DNA from: Bacillus sp. FJAT-42315
GTDB taxonomy: Bacteria > Bacillota > Bacilli > Bacillales > Domibacillaceae
Direction of reading: 5' to 3'
NCBI RefSeq assembly: GCF_002797375.1
Contig: NZ_KZ454941.1
Coordinates: forward strand, 3,224,799-3,288,414
DNA: 63,616 nt
The notes beneath the pieces were generated by a model. It was given only the letters and a program-made list of their open reading frames with translations, ran no database searches and was not told the origin of the DNA. This document shows positions 50,879-59,130 of the stretch, piece after piece. A program made the position numbers and the translations under genes. The first letter of the stretch is position 1. Every line of letters begins with the position of its first letter.

Positions 50879-51276
50879 TTAAGCTTTTTGAATCGGTGCA
50901 AATTTAGCCAACAGTCGCTTAATGCCAGTCGGACTTGGAAAAGCAATATCTAATTCGACGCCATCTCCACTGCCTTTCACGCTAACGACCGTACCCGTTC
51001 CCCATTTCTTATGGCTCGCTTTATCGCCTACTTTCCAGTCAGTACCGCTACTAGCTGTATTGATTCGCGGACGTGCCACCGGACGGCGTGGTGCTTGCGA
51101 TTGAGTTTTCACTCCAAATGGTGTGTTGACTCTTTCAGCAGCTGCCATATTATCAATCAAATCTGCTGGAATTTCACCAATAAAGCGCGACACTGGATTC
51201 ATATTTGTTCGACCATATAAGGTGCGCATTTGAGCATTTGTTAAATATAACTCTTCTTCCGCTCTAGTGATTCCAA
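50879..51276 (-). other. pcrA: pcrA exon 4
   Basis: This exon begins with the last two bases of the valine codon in [14 protein letters not shown] and codes the end of motif VI and the C-terminal region with [10 protein letters not shown] and [11 protein letters not shown]. An unspliced frame runs into it from the intron 3 tail ([14 protein letters not shown]). Confidence 0.93.
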
Positions 51277-57200: not shown

Positions 57201-59130
57201 TCACTAGTTTACCGTTTGATTCAAGAATTTTTGCTTTTAGCATCTTTTTAATAATCTGTAGGACACTCTTATCTTTAATACCAATGCTCCATAATTGATT
57301 AATTAAAATCTTATGGTTCACGTTATCAAAGAAACCTTTAATGTCTACATTTACGATGTATTGATGTTTACTTAAGTTCAGGCTTTTCATTACATCGGCT
57401 AAAGCATTCTCTTGATTCCTTTTTGGTCTGAATCCATATGAATTATGAGCAAATTTTTTCTCGCATATTGGTTCAATAATTTGTTTAATACATTGTTGTA
57501 TTAACCTATCCCAAATTGTCGGTATGCCTAGTGGACGAAGTTTTCCATTATCCTTTTCAATGTAAACTCTTTTAACTGGGTCTGGTTTGTAATCTGACAG
57601 CCTCTCCCTTACAGTTTTAATTAGCTTATCTAAACTTATGTGATTGATATCTTCAATGTTAAGTTCATCTACGCCTTTGGCATGACTACCTGTATTTCTT
57701 TTTAAGCAATCATAAGCACAAATAATATTTCTTTTGGTAGTGATTAACTTATAAAGATTCTTGGGCGTATCGTTTTCCCACAGTTCATTTTGTAACGGTA
57801 GAATATCATGGTATTCAGCTCTTTTACCTTTAGTATTCAGCGTCATTACATCACTCCCGTTTTTGGAGCGAACTTGACAACTTAACCGTTTCCTCTGAAT
57901 TTTCCTTAATTGAAATTTACTTTAGAAATTTGCACTGTCTAAGGGCTATCCCTCCACTACTTGTTATCATAGCTTCTCAGGTACTGTGCCCTCGCTCTCA
58001 CAGACATTAAACCCATTTCGTTTCCTTTATAGGGTAAGATACACTCTGGTATAAGTTATTCCGTATCTTGTCTGCTTTCCACGTTCCGAATTTACTAGCT
58101 GTACATATAGCCTTAGGTCTCTGCTTTAAGCCTGCAGCACATATATCTATTTGGTGATATCCCGAATTTCTTAACGACCACTCATACTTTTCGGTATGCT
58201 ACACTCCGTATTAAGGAGCTAAGAAGTTTCCCTCTTATCTTCGTCTAGACCTGTACATTCGCAGATTCGTCAGTCTACATTTAGACATTCTAACCATAGC
58301 TATTTTATAGCACCCCACGCTATCACAGCCATATCCCTAAGGACTTAGGTTATTTCACGTGACTTCATCCCGCTTTATACCTTGCAGATATACCACTCCA
58401 CAACGCATAGGGAAGTATTAGGTTGTATGTTTCATAAGACCATAACTTATTTCATTCCATACATCGTAAATTCAGTTGTAGCTAAGTTTCCTCAGCCCTC
58501 ACCTTTACCGCATTTTTAGCAAATGCTTAGGGTGAAACGTGTCACACAATCATCAAAGTCTAACGCTTGATTTTTCTTTAGCCGTTTTTGATATTCGGTG
58601 TACACTTCACTGACGACTTGATCCATGTAGCCACCTTGACTTTTGCTGAACGTTTCAGGATCAATTAGTTCATTTTTAGCGGAACTAATGGAAGCCAATA
58701 AACCACGAGGATCAAATTTCTTCGGATCAAGGTTTTTTTCCTTTAAAATCCCTTTAATCACCGATTGCTGATCGGTCGAGTCTAAAATAGTAAAGTTGCG
58801 ATTGTAGCCGATACGGTCGATATCTCTCCGTAAAATTCGGACGCACATTGAGTGGAAAGTCGAAATCCAAATATCCTCTGCTGCGCCACCAAGCAATCTG
58901 CCAATCCGCTCTTTCATCTCACGCGACGCCTTGTTGGTGAAGGTAATCGCGAGAATGTTATACGGATTCACACCCTTTTCCACCATTAAATAAGCAATTC
59001 GATGAGTGAGCACTCTCGTTTTACCTGAACCAGCTCCTGCCATGATCAATAGCGGACCTTCCGTCGTCTTCACTGCTTCCTGCTGTTCAGGATTTAAGCC
59101 TGTTAATAATTTTTCAGTTAAAAAGTTCAT
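50879..59130 (-). CDS. pcrA: ATP-dependent DNA helicase PcrA, split into four exons by three group II introns
   Basis: PcrA is a UvrD-family 3'-5' helicase for repair and plasmid replication, essential in B. subtilis. The exons are 58548-59130 (583 nt), 55834-55932 (99 nt), 53812-54939 (1128 nt) and 50879-51276 (398 nt). Joined they give 2208 nt, exactly 735 residues and a stop, close to the usual 739. The joined protein shows [15 protein letters not shown] (motif I), HVDEYQDTNRAQYM (II), [14 protein letters not shown] (III), [16 protein letters not shown] (V), and [17 protein letters not shown] (VI), with the PcrA C-terminus [19 protein letters not shown]. The start has AGGTGG. Each exon is intact, so correct splicing would give a normal enzyme. 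pcrB lies upstream and ligA downstream. A second complete copy elsewhere cannot be excluded. Confidence 0.93.
51277..53811 (-). mobile_element. Group II intron 3 in pcrA (2535 bp, encodes reverse transcriptase)
   Basis: The intron lies in sense orientation within motif VI of pcrA, after the G of the valine codon (phase 1). Its 5' end reads GTATGAAACGTTTG, a variant of the GTGYG consensus, and its 3' end reads GTTTACCTATCACCAT. Domain V is recognised near 51325-51362 (minus strand GAACGCCGTGTGCGGGGAAA, then CTTGCACGCACGGTGTG). The branch-site helix (GGTTTACCTATC) follows. The segment GGAGGGAAGGCC near 53220 corresponds to the block before the open frame in the other two introns. The 5' boundary could shift by one base. 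Confidence 0.9.
51390..53165 (-). CDS. ltrA-like: Group II intron-encoded reverse transcriptase/maturase with HNH domain (intron 3)
   Basis: This protein aids splicing and retrohoming of its intron. From a TTG at 53165 (GAAGGCG upstream) it has 591 residues. The frame stays open to 53285, but that part overlaps RNA structure. The reverse transcriptase motifs are [38 protein letters not shown], and RYADDFVLI (active-site YADD). The fourth motif reads [14 protein letters not shown] rather than the usual PQGG-LSP, a divergence. An X domain follows, then HNH residues in [20 protein letters not shown] and SHKFVHDV. The end, LNKYRKLCG, resembles other group II proteins. It stops 28 bp upstream of domain V. 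Confidence 0.9.
   Translation of the reverse strand: MKVKEKDIWRYGINDIEQILFDKALTKTRFNHLWQYVIDEVNIICSIKIIGSNKGKKTAGPDGLTFNNIMKLDIDVVIKEVKNRLFGSKQGKARRVMIPKSNGKMRPLGITNLFDRIAQQCVRNILEPILEAHFNPESFGFRKNRNAQECMSYIATTLQYNNEGHIYDCDLKEYFDTVQIDKVLDKLKSNHNIHDLAFLKCIKRLMWIDLIQPKEKYNGIGLRQGTILGPILANVMFHDFELRLHEINDFKRDNGRQIIQNPNIHKNHGKNYKRGREFYFNWLQERRVVKIIRYADDFVLISKGKYDIYDAIMMLEDWCKENGLEINRDKTKLIPIHGDTQLEFLGFKYRKTNSTKQNSFIISVKDQKKLWKETKRKLEWCLWKGNLDYFIVYIRGIFNYYNICTNLTWLISRIQLLLIKKMVRRREVKIDIVRNPHVSFMVNGQLLDLWEMRKHSVKSTTNYMYEVHKLWEPNQTEYKALEWLNYFFENRTKTGKNSSNIIYIPSLLNQHKKEPILDKEYLTMDPQEIHIHHKIPKNLGGTDSYNNLVMLSNTSHKFVHDVNLKLKDLPAYINLKQLNKYRKLCGYNSLK
53812..54939 (-). other. pcrA: pcrA exon 3
   Basis: The exon of 1128 nt (376 codons) starts with CG of the threonine codon in DEYQD-TNRAQYM and ends with the G of the valine codon in RRLAY-V. 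It encodes helicase motifs II (second half), III, IV and V and domain 2B. Its unspliced frame stops in intron 3 (reading GMKRLPEIA). Confidence 0.93.
54940..55833 (-). mobile_element. Group II intron 2 in pcrA (894 bp, without a complete reverse transcriptase gene)
   Basis: The intron is inserted in the same sense within motif II (after the A of the threonine codon in DEYQDT; phase 1). Its ends are GTGCGACACGTTG (5') and CTTACCTATCCATAT (3'). Domain V lies at about 54986-55024 (minus strand GAACGCCGTATGCGGGGAAA, then CTCGCACGTACGGTGTG), and the sequence is clearly related to introns 1 and 3, sharing GGCACAGTACC and GGAGGGATAGCC. Where the others hold a 1.8-kb gene, only about 200 bp lie between that block and domain V. 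A relic of the protein's end is found there (55041-55106). Confidence 0.9.
55041..55106 (-). pseudogene. Relic of the intron-encoded protein C-terminus in intron 2
   Basis: Twenty-one codons and a stop read [20 protein letters not shown]. This matches the typical end of group II intron proteins and aligns with [15 protein letters not shown] in intron 1 and LNKYRKLCG in intron 3. The frame is broken upstream (LTDNNQ in a different frame). It shows that intron 2 once carried a full protein gene. Confidence 0.65.
55834..55932 (-). other. pcrA: pcrA exon 2 (99-nt mini-exon)
   Basis: This 33-codon exon encodes [33 protein letters not shown], with the first base of L in exon 1 and the last two bases of T in exon 3. 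It matches the B. subtilis PcrA segment between DFDD and TNRAQYM residue for residue in length. Confidence 0.93.
55933..58547 (-). mobile_element. Group II intron 1 in pcrA (2615 bp, encodes reverse transcriptase)
   Basis: The intron follows DFDD in pcrA, after the first base of the leucine codon (phase 1), in sense orientation. Its 5' end is GTGTGACACGTTTC (GTGYG consensus), its 3' end GTTACCTATCACCAT. Domain V is at about 55981-56018 (minus strand GAACGCCGTATGCGCTGAAA, then GGTGCACGTACGGTGTG), followed by the branch-point helix. The 700 nt before the protein gene are domain I-III RNA with GAACGTGGAAAGC, GGCACAGTACC and GGAGGGATAGCC, also found in intron 2. Confidence 0.92.
56026..57846 (-). 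CDS. ltrA-like: Group II intron-encoded reverse transcriptase/maturase with HNH domain (intron 1)
   Basis: This 606-residue protein should promote splicing and mobility of intron 1. Motifs in order: [13 protein letters not shown] (about 54-66), [16 protein letters not shown] (103-118), [26 protein letters not shown] (164-176), [14 protein letters not shown] (221-234) and the catalytic RYADDFVIT (YADD 289-292). The X (maturase) domain follows, then an HNH endonuclease at about 537-567 ([28 protein letters not shown]). The end reads [10 protein letters not shown]. The start has GGGAGTGA nine bases upstream. All key catalytic residues are present, so the protein may be active. It could also serve intron 2 in trans. 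Confidence 0.93.
   Translation of the reverse strand: MTLNTKGKRAEYHDILPLQNELWENDTPKNLYKLITTKRNIICAYDCLKRNTGSHAKGVDELNIEDINHISLDKLIKTVRERLSDYKPDPVKRVYIEKDNGKLRPLGIPTIWDRLIQQCIKQIIEPICEKKFAHNSYGFRPKRNQENALADVMKSLNLSKHQYIVNVDIKGFFDNVNHKILINQLWSIGIKDKSVLQIIKKMLKAKILESNGKLVTPSKGTPQGGILSPLLSNVVLNDLDHWVNDQWTECGIETPSITIQMNKNGSQGGDKYRHLRKFSTLKEGRLVRYADDFVITCKTYNEAVRWSHAVANYLKRRLKLDVEDNKSKIINLQKKYSEFLGFKFKLKKKRNKWVAESRISDKKKKKILASYRQQIRNTWSGADIYKLNTKTFGLWEYFKHATVVSVDMSEIAWRLNKIIYNHFQMNGEFRYLTESELKSTGVGIKMTKLKNHCKVWVQHGVPVMPISMGKTQYPLCKRRQEKPYDFTKEKKDWQSYIILVESNITSSTQFHINKVSRYAQQKGKCAILKQFTGLDFHCHHILPRYLGGDDSYENLIVLDRRVHNLIHTKYDWKIKEMIKELNLNKQQIAKINKLRNQCKLNEIEIE
58548..59130 (-). other. pcrA: pcrA exon 1
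   Basis: The exon codes residues 1-194 and the first base of codon 195. It opens [20 protein letters not shown] and includes the Walker A motif AGAGSGKT and [13 protein letters not shown], ending QALDFDD. Without splicing, translation would stop at 58516, ten codons into intron 1 ([10 protein letters not shown]). Confidence 0.93.

Follow-up and report, generated by a model that had tools for sequence, protein, structure and literature searches.

Three group II introns within the pcrA helicase gene of Bacillus sp. FJAT-42315

In Bacillus sp. FJAT-42315 (GCF_002797375.1, NZ_KZ454941.1: 3,224,799-3,288,414; this 63,616-nt stretch is termed here the window) the gene for the DNA helicase PcrA is divided into four coding segments by three group II introns. 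It is highly probable that this is the single functional pcrA gene of the cell, that its introns arrived singly by retrohoming, and that their excision from the pre-mRNA allows PcrA to be produced. Bacterial group II introns have usually been described outside of housekeeping genes (PMC4424553, PMC3522654). Genomes sampled from the same order, the Bacillales, are denoted by G-codes (the genome of the window being G000 and that of SAS-127 being G002) and individual loci by L-codes.

Results

Organization of the interrupted gene

The pcrA gene runs from 59130 to 50879 on the minus strand of the window, as do all of its parts. Exon 1 (59130-58548; 583 nt, i.e., 194 codons plus one nucleotide) ends in ALDFDD and matches positions 1-189 of the PcrA profile TIGR01073; it is followed by intron 1 (58547-55933; 2615 nt; 5' end GTGTGACACG, 3' end CACCAT). 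Exon 2 (55932-55834; 99 nt; profile positions 186-222) ends in VDEYQD and is followed by intron 2 (55833-54940; 894 nt; 5' end GTGCGACACG, 3' end CCATAT), which contains no gene for an intron protein; exon 3 (54939-53812; 1128 nt; profile positions 221-595) ends in RRLAY and is followed by intron 3 (53811-51277; 2535 nt; 5' end GTATGAAACG, 3' end CACCAT); and exon 4 (51276-50879; 398 nt with the stop codon; profile positions 590-725) completes the gene. The ends of exons 2 and 3 are taken here to be helicase motifs II and VI, respectively. Intron borders were placed using the resumption of the PcrA reading, the GTGYG-type 5' ends and the Rfam domain V-VI matches described below, and all three splits fall after the first base of a codon (phase 1).

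Together the exons comprise 2208 nt, i.e., 735 codons plus a stop, and contain neither stops nor frameshifts; the uninterrupted pcrA gene of a close relative, REN10, likewise encodes 735 residues. Because the exons tile the profile from 1 to 725 once and without a gap, no part of PcrA is missing or duplicated. Three of the exons, when scanned singly, had TIGR01073 as their top match, each exon alone scoring below the whole-protein cut-off. A prior sequence-only reading of this DNA had joined four segments in frame into 736 codons at 50879-59130, with all three introns in sense orientation, and in these respects it was correct.

Identity of the insertions

By structure, the three insertions are group II introns, as their ends and domain V-like hairpins had earlier indicated. 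Each contains a match to the Rfam model of domains V and VI (D5-D6), RF00029, at 55933-56017, 54940-55024 and 51277-51361 in introns 1, 2 and 3 (61.9-62.9 bits; cut-off 40), which ends exactly at the inferred 3' splice site, and a match to the model of domains I to IV (D1-D4), RF02004, at 58304-58480, 55586-55785 and 53554-53743 (104.3, 185.2 and 51.8 bits, respectively; cut-off 34.5). Their 5' and 3' ends are GTGTG..AT and GTGCG..AT, with a variant, GTATG..AT, in intron 3. When the 3' ends of 15 related introns are aligned, domain V (which in the pcrA introns is of the CGC-triad type) is a 14-bp hairpin having invariant C-G, G-U and C-G pairs; pairing is maintained through compensatory changes, with at least one double change in 12 of the 26 D5-D6 pairs; and domain VI has, in all 15 introns, an unpaired A located 8 nt from the 3' end, which is a candidate branch point. 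An intein reading was rejected: group II ends are present and no frame is open through any insertion, the longest stop-free stretches being 631, 73 and 633 codons out of about 871, 298 and 845 for insertions 1, 2 and 3.

The pcrA introns and their relatives are termed here 'B-like', a class label that is presumed. Putative exon-binding site 1 (EBS1) sequences occur on the minus strand at 58174-58179 in intron 1 (intron positions 369-374), at 55453-55458 in intron 2 (376-381) and at 53441-53446 in intron 3 (366-371); five of six pairs are Watson-Crick for intron 2 and three of six for introns 1 and 3, the rest being G-U. Each is the one 6-bp match, G-U pairs allowed, between intron positions 150 and 480. 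Among B-like introns a 6-bp match to the intron's own exon occurs at intron positions 350-400 in 14 of 16 cases, versus 43 of 216 with the exons of other sites. The class label is indirectly supported, because a covariance model of the D5-D6 region (termed R1) also matches, at 33-44 bits, certain units of G000 that resemble the Clostridium tetani intron C.te.I1, which is most similar to class B (PMC3919590).

Introns 1 and 3 each encode a reverse transcriptase/maturase on the minus strand: that of intron 1 (57846-56026; 606 aa) has a YADD motif and an HNH-like C terminus and scores 337.7 bits against TIGR04416 (cut-off 300); that of intron 3 (53285-51390; 631 aa) has YADD and an HNH-like motif and, at 223.0 bits, falls below that cut-off.

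Complete introns in recJ and polC

Five complete group II introns are present in G000, all of them within replication or repair genes: the three in pcrA and one each in recJ and polC. Four intron proteins were found in this genome, encoded by pcrA introns 1 and 3 and by the recJ and polC introns. The recJ intron (L099; G000:C1:1401017-1403801; 2785 nt, with a protein) is inserted at GDYDA/DG, and the polC intron (L100; G000:C1:2420405-2423208; 2804 nt) at YMFPKA/HAAAYV, near the 3' end of polC. The flanking coding pieces tile TIGR00644 (2-65 and 67-374) for recJ and NF001688 (340-1273 and 1275-1444) for polC. In G004 the same recJ site harbors a 976-nt intron without a protein (L113), and the recJ gene of G199 has an 877-nt intron at the same motif (L148).

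Distribution of pcrA introns within the order

A PcrA match was found in 396 of the 397 genomes sampled from the order (there is none in G393). By best-match score, pcrA is uninterrupted in 389 of these and split in seven, namely G000, G001, G002, G004, G005, G232 and G295; among them, three introns are seen only in G000, at sites corresponding to REN10 residues 195, 228 and 604, and in G004, at residues 69, 228 and 604. Eighty relatives were also retrieved by means of exon 3: two (SAS-127 and B. badius, the latter now Pseudobacillus badius) contain an insert of 2.7 kb at site 2, none of the three sites is interrupted in another 76 (for one of which the gap count is off by one base), and exon 2 was unreadable in the last two.

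Over its first 600 nt the site-2 intron of G000 is 90.5% identical to that of G295 or G232, which belong to another family, versus 67-72% identity for the flanking exons. G004 and G005 share a second site-2 lineage (93.2% identical, exons 78%), and so within the genus two intron lineages evidently occupy this one site. Because pcrA introns occur so patchily (7 of 396) and because intron identity at site 2 exceeds exon identity between families, these patterns point to independent retrohoming into pcrA.

The same patchiness bears on the possibility that the introns are conditional regulators, i.e., that temperature, Mg or stress adjusts how the pcrA, recJ and polC transcripts are spliced and so couples DNA replication and repair to splicing. 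Several introns do occur in the replication and repair genes of one genome, intron 2 has been retained after losing its protein (see below), and regulated splicing has been described for inteins in such genes (PMC5874633); however, a distribution in which sister species lack the pcrA introns is what would be expected of a parasite, and a regulatory role is unlikely.

Regarding routes of transfer, related intron proteins are encoded at 39 viral loci (insertion sites were examined in the first 25 of these), in 12 phage records, all below 60% identity, and in 351 plasmid records, 225 of them predicted to be conjugative and one of the 351 exceeding 60% identity. Plasmids are thus possible vectors, with no close donor found among these records; conjugative plasmids, carrying related rather than close intron proteins, could have provided the route of spread.

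Origin of the introns and loss of the intron 2 protein

Judging by their divergence, the three pcrA introns are of different lineages and are not copies of one another. Their last 80-90 nt are similar and the rest poorly so (with less in common for the polC intron). Introns 1 and 3 show 86% identity across the final 87 nt; elsewhere the alignments cover only stretches that are short or about 67% identical. The four G000 intron proteins are 28-50% identical to their best matches. In a tree of 35 intron proteins, those at pcrA site 2 form a single clade with a protein from addA motif II (100/99), and four proteins from the PolC active site form another (100/100), proteins not being grouped by genome; the long branches of intron 3, G098 and intron 1 make the deep placement of those three unsure. 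Local copying of a single intron is rejected in view of this divergence of introns and proteins. More broadly, spread within G000 by retrotransposition of the introns from one another, which might be suggested by the D5-D6 type common to all of them and by the similar ends of introns 1 and 3, is quite unlikely, for site 2 has its close relatives in other species.

Comparison with a 2664-nt intron located at the same site in SAS-127 gives identities of 96.8% (728 nt) for one end of intron 2 and 97.6% (164 nt) for the other; a stretch of about 1.77 kb, including the protein gene, was therefore deleted, and intron 2 is, by this comparison, a deletion derivative of an SAS-127-type site-2 intron. 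Proteins at pcrA site 2 have been lost in G000, G004 and G232, and, because each of these genomes has a near relative that retains the protein, three separate deletions are suggested. Of the proteins in G000, the one encoded by the recJ intron matches the lost site-2 protein best (56% over the reverse transcriptase part). For introns 1 and 3 no close protein-encoding relative was found at the same site: site 3 is occupied in G004 by a 969-nt intron, and G000 is the only genome in which an intron was seen at site 1.

Single copy, selection and dependence on splicing

The G000 genome consists of 3.7 Mb in two contigs and is listed as 100% complete. Searches with PF00580 and TIGR01073 revealed no second pcrA within it, a possibility that the sequence-only reading had left to be checked; besides PcrA, the UvrD family is represented by AddA and by a 713-aa protein (C1:2185017-2187002) that scores 346 bits versus the PcrA (TIGR01073) cut-off of 911. 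For the pcrA exons, dN/dS is 0.032 versus SAS-127, 0.033 versus REN10 and 0.037 versus G001 (versus more distant relatives dS is saturated for part of the exons), and the exons are evidently under strong purifying selection. PcrA is essential in Bacillus subtilis. Because a single copy is under such selection and the introns have stops in every frame, splicing is very likely; indeed, splicing of all three introns is very probably obligatory for the cell, and this bacterium seems to depend on RNA splicing of an essential helicase gene to live.

One could suppose instead that pcrA is being lost, its introns splicing poorly or not at all, and that the 713-aa UvrD-like paralogue covers its function. 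Such a paralogue does exist, and the case for splicing is indirect; but the paralogue is not a PcrA equivalog; proteins of similar score (348-351 bits) occur in G001-G003, of which G003 has an uninterrupted pcrA; G004, which also has three pcrA introns, has no such paralogue among the matches listed; and the pcrA exons are intact, with a dN/dS of about 0.03. Loss of pcrA is accordingly very unlikely. An assembly artefact, in which intron sequences (repeats able to mislead assemblers) were wrongly joined into pcrA, is most improbable, because the pcrA introns are distinct both among themselves and from those of recJ and polC and because introns are present in independent assemblies at site 2 (SAS-127, B. 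badius, G001, G004, G232 and G295) and site 3 (G004).

Supply of maturases

Survival had been supposed to hinge on multiple self-splicing events; dependence on splicing stands as the probable case, while purely unaided splicing is not needed, given that introns 1 and 3 carry maturases, intron 2 having lost its own. The introns would have arrived one by one, via retrohoming into conserved helicase motifs; introns 1 and 3 supply their own maturases; and intron 2 would have to splice either unaided or with a maturase acting in trans, most likely the recJ-intron protein, which is the closest relative left in the genome.

In G004 a single intron protein was found in the whole genome, within addA (L111; G004:C1:771500-783000). 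It has YADS where its relatives have YADD (a reading that rests on one codon, so that a sequencing error is possible) and stops before the HNH part. The B-like introns of this genome (three in pcrA and one in recJ) are 955-1085 nt long and, like an 877-nt intron at radC site 2, contain no protein gene. The L111 protein is a candidate maturase-only protein in a bacterium; if this is right, the introns of G004 would splice either unaided or with the help of a non-cognate, reverse-transcriptase-dead maturase.

Domain V-VI units elsewhere in the genome

RF00029 matches in G000 number 13, eight of which lie beyond the complete introns (one at 44 bits and seven below the cut-off). Regarding these eight as spurious was overturned by the finding of eleven D5-D6 units, each located before an exon-like open frame, at G000:C1:391901-438069 (L101, L103 and L104), 2282386-2282987 (L102) and 2365100-2365758 (L105). 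When aligned, all eleven end in GAAT/AGC; ten then continue in frame for 77-416 open codons, and the eleventh has 114 open codons downstream. Judged by eye, what these exons encode resembles surface or repeat-rich proteins. Neither an RF02004 (D1-D4) match nor an intron protein was found in the stretches containing these units. SAS-127 has two units of the same GAAT/AGC type. By analogy, the eleven units are likely an alternative-splicing array of the C.te.I1 type, larger than the four copies of C. tetani. In G034, a 3.4-Mb genome of the same order, there are fifty RF00029 matches, mostly of equal score, which represent a different multi-copy group II type.

Replication and repair genes as hosts within the order

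The R1 model has a match in 146 of the 397 genomes. From among the matches listed, 96 loci were taken (60 + 36), with equal-score repeats taken once per genome and with G280:C10, two places in G305, G117:C51:6151 and G177:C47 excluded. Those in replication or repair genes are: polC, at PDIDL/NFSG (eight loci from six families: L154, L173, L175, L176, L185, L187, L189 and L202); recA (five loci: L146, L211, L216, L217 and L220); radC (three: L153, L174 and L186); pcrA site 2 (two: L133 and L136); and recJ (one: L148). The recA introns are at DAEHA/LDP, in phase 1, in G114, G145, G218, G263 and G284, and the recA gene of G263 (L146) contains two group II introns, at DAEHA/LDP and TGEQA/LEI. Host genes were named by profile for L154, L202, L146, L211, L216, L148 and L186 and, for the others, via the same exon sequence. 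Ten further loci are in other, partly mobile-type genes (L132, L137, L139, L140, L141, L142, L144, L145, L150 and L177; only L137, L142, L150 and L177 reach a Pfam cut-off, and L141 was outside the scan), and the remaining 67 are intergenic or have no assigned host gene.

Among nearer relatives, introns also occur in addA (G004 and G018), radC (G004, G005, G055 and G027), topB (G021), a Y-family polymerase gene (G012), and ssb and two places in nrdJ (G055); G013 has an intron outside of replication and repair genes, in a host read as of the cell-wall hydrolase type. In the addA gene of G018 (L119) a relative of the pcrA intron is inserted at DEYQD/N, which corresponds to pcrA site 2, and a jump between paralogous helicase motifs is possible.

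Conservation and phase of the target sites

When 74 PcrA sequences are aligned, the points of insertion known for pcrA, four in number, lie at percentiles 96.7, 81.4, 90.6 and 94.7 of window conservation. Of distinct B-like chromosomal sites, 16 of 18 are in phase 1, as are 21 of 23 when five sites on viral contigs (L232, L234, L237/L238, L248 and L249) are included (binomial P = 1.7e-6 and 1.1e-8, respectively; these values are descriptive, inasmuch as sites share ancestry). Both exons were resolved at every site counted, loci open on one side being outside the count. Left out, due to an unresolved 5' end or a short upstream frame, were ssb, L132, L137, L140, L142, L174 and L228 (read as phase 1), L177 (phase 0) and L226 (phase 2). 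Phase 1 would keep both junction-adjacent bases off the wobble position. It is not general: the surface-protein-like units start their exons in frame 0, and introns of another class (with GTGCGCC ends, in radC and addA) are in phase 0.

That these introns lie within conserved motifs of replication and repair genes is best explained by a choice of targets like that of inteins: homing elements persist at places where the target is identical in every species. Extending this, a tentative joint reading, held to be somewhat less probable than not, is that certain Bacillales intron lineages live like inteins, each homing across species and families to one catalytic-motif position of a replication or repair gene (PcrA motifs Ia, II and VI, the PolC active site, RecJ, RecA or AddA motif II) where the target is not free to mutate, mostly in phase 1, and that in some hosts, such as G004, the introns have then turned splicing-only, which would leave the bacterium dependent on splicing of an organelle style for an essential gene. 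(The motif names used for the PcrA and AddA sites are presumed.)

Several observations weigh against these interpretations. For the pcrA introns themselves, intron 3 starts with GTATG, a departure from GTGYG; the protein that it encodes diverges strongly (being about 28% identical to the best matches) and has the longest end branch in the tree; and two of the 16 B-like introns, those of G000 recJ and G004 pcrA site 2, have no EBS1 match. For target choice, the mean conservation of the four pcrA sites is high (P = 0.0009), but this value rests on four sites in one gene; only 19 of the 96 loci are in replication or repair genes; and eleven related domain V-VI units precede surface-protein-like exons in the very genome in question, which makes the joint reading somewhat less probable. 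In view of these units and of the 19 loci, the replication and repair niche is limited to some lineages: the preference is strong in certain lineages and not in the family as a whole.

Genes adjoining pcrA

Also on the minus strand, a gene for heptaprenylglyceryl phosphate synthase (59161-59853; NF003197, 392.9 bits; cut-off 260), presumably pcrB, lies upstream of pcrA, and ligA, encoding NAD-dependent DNA ligase (48855-50864; NF005932, 947 bits; cut-off 369), lies downstream.

Discussion

No report of pcrA or polC split by group II introns was found in the open-access literature that was searched, subscription papers being mostly outside its scope. Three introns in one essential gene had seemed striking at the outset, and the number three holds; yet there is a precedent, in that the ribonucleotide reductase gene of Trichodesmium is reported to contain four inteins along with three group II introns (Liu, Yang, Meng 2003, as cited in PMC4649490). 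Moreover, one Trichodesmium intron protein is reported to aid several similar introns that belong to different genes (Meng, Wang, Liu 2005, cited there as well). The Trichodesmium and pcrA cases alike involve several group II introns within one DNA-metabolism gene; the pcrA case differs from that of this cyanobacterium in that the host encodes a helicase, the introns are of three different lineages, and a same-site intron occurs in another family. The recA intron of Geobacillus kaustophilus (Chee and Takami 2005) is active in an essential gene (PMC3522654): it too interrupts a repair gene of a Bacillus relative, but it is a single intron in another gene. It is likely a member of the present D5-D6 family.

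C.te.I1 lacks an intron protein both within itself and in its genome and yet is spliced in vivo, and its D5-D6 region is present in four copies, which are used with alternative exons for a surface-layer protein (PMC3919590). It thus provides a precedent for protein-less pcrA introns, and its repeated D5-D6 motifs resemble the eleven units of G000; it differs in that it functions in alternative splicing of a surface-layer gene, rather than in removal from an essential enzyme gene. Phage group II introns likewise occur within coding genes, with ORF-less introns beside protein-coding ones and with help in trans being proposed, and one near-identical pair is found in remotely homologous helicase genes (PMC12350094); these are phage genes, however, and not a chromosomal essential gene with three introns. 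Replication and repair genes have many group II introns as neighbors in Thiomargarita (PMC4853749).

Inteins are known from PcrA/UvrD, RecA, polymerases, topoisomerases and ribonucleotide reductases, where they are inserted at P-loops and at catalytic or ligand-binding sites (PMC5874633). They share with the pcrA introns both a host-gene niche and a preference for catalytic sites, and differ from them in mechanism, which for the introns would be RNA splicing and retrohoming rather than protein splicing.

Conclusions

An essential helicase gene that contains three group II introns, within a genome whose recJ and polC genes contain one each, suggests that the niche of inteins, namely the conserved motifs found in DNA enzymes, reflects the nature of homing targets rather than being peculiar to inteins. 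Introns that range from protein-encoding to protein-less at the same site constitute a natural series, which bears on how mobile group II introns become splicing-only introns dependent upon trans-acting factors, a transition that has been proposed as a step toward organellar and spliceosomal introns.

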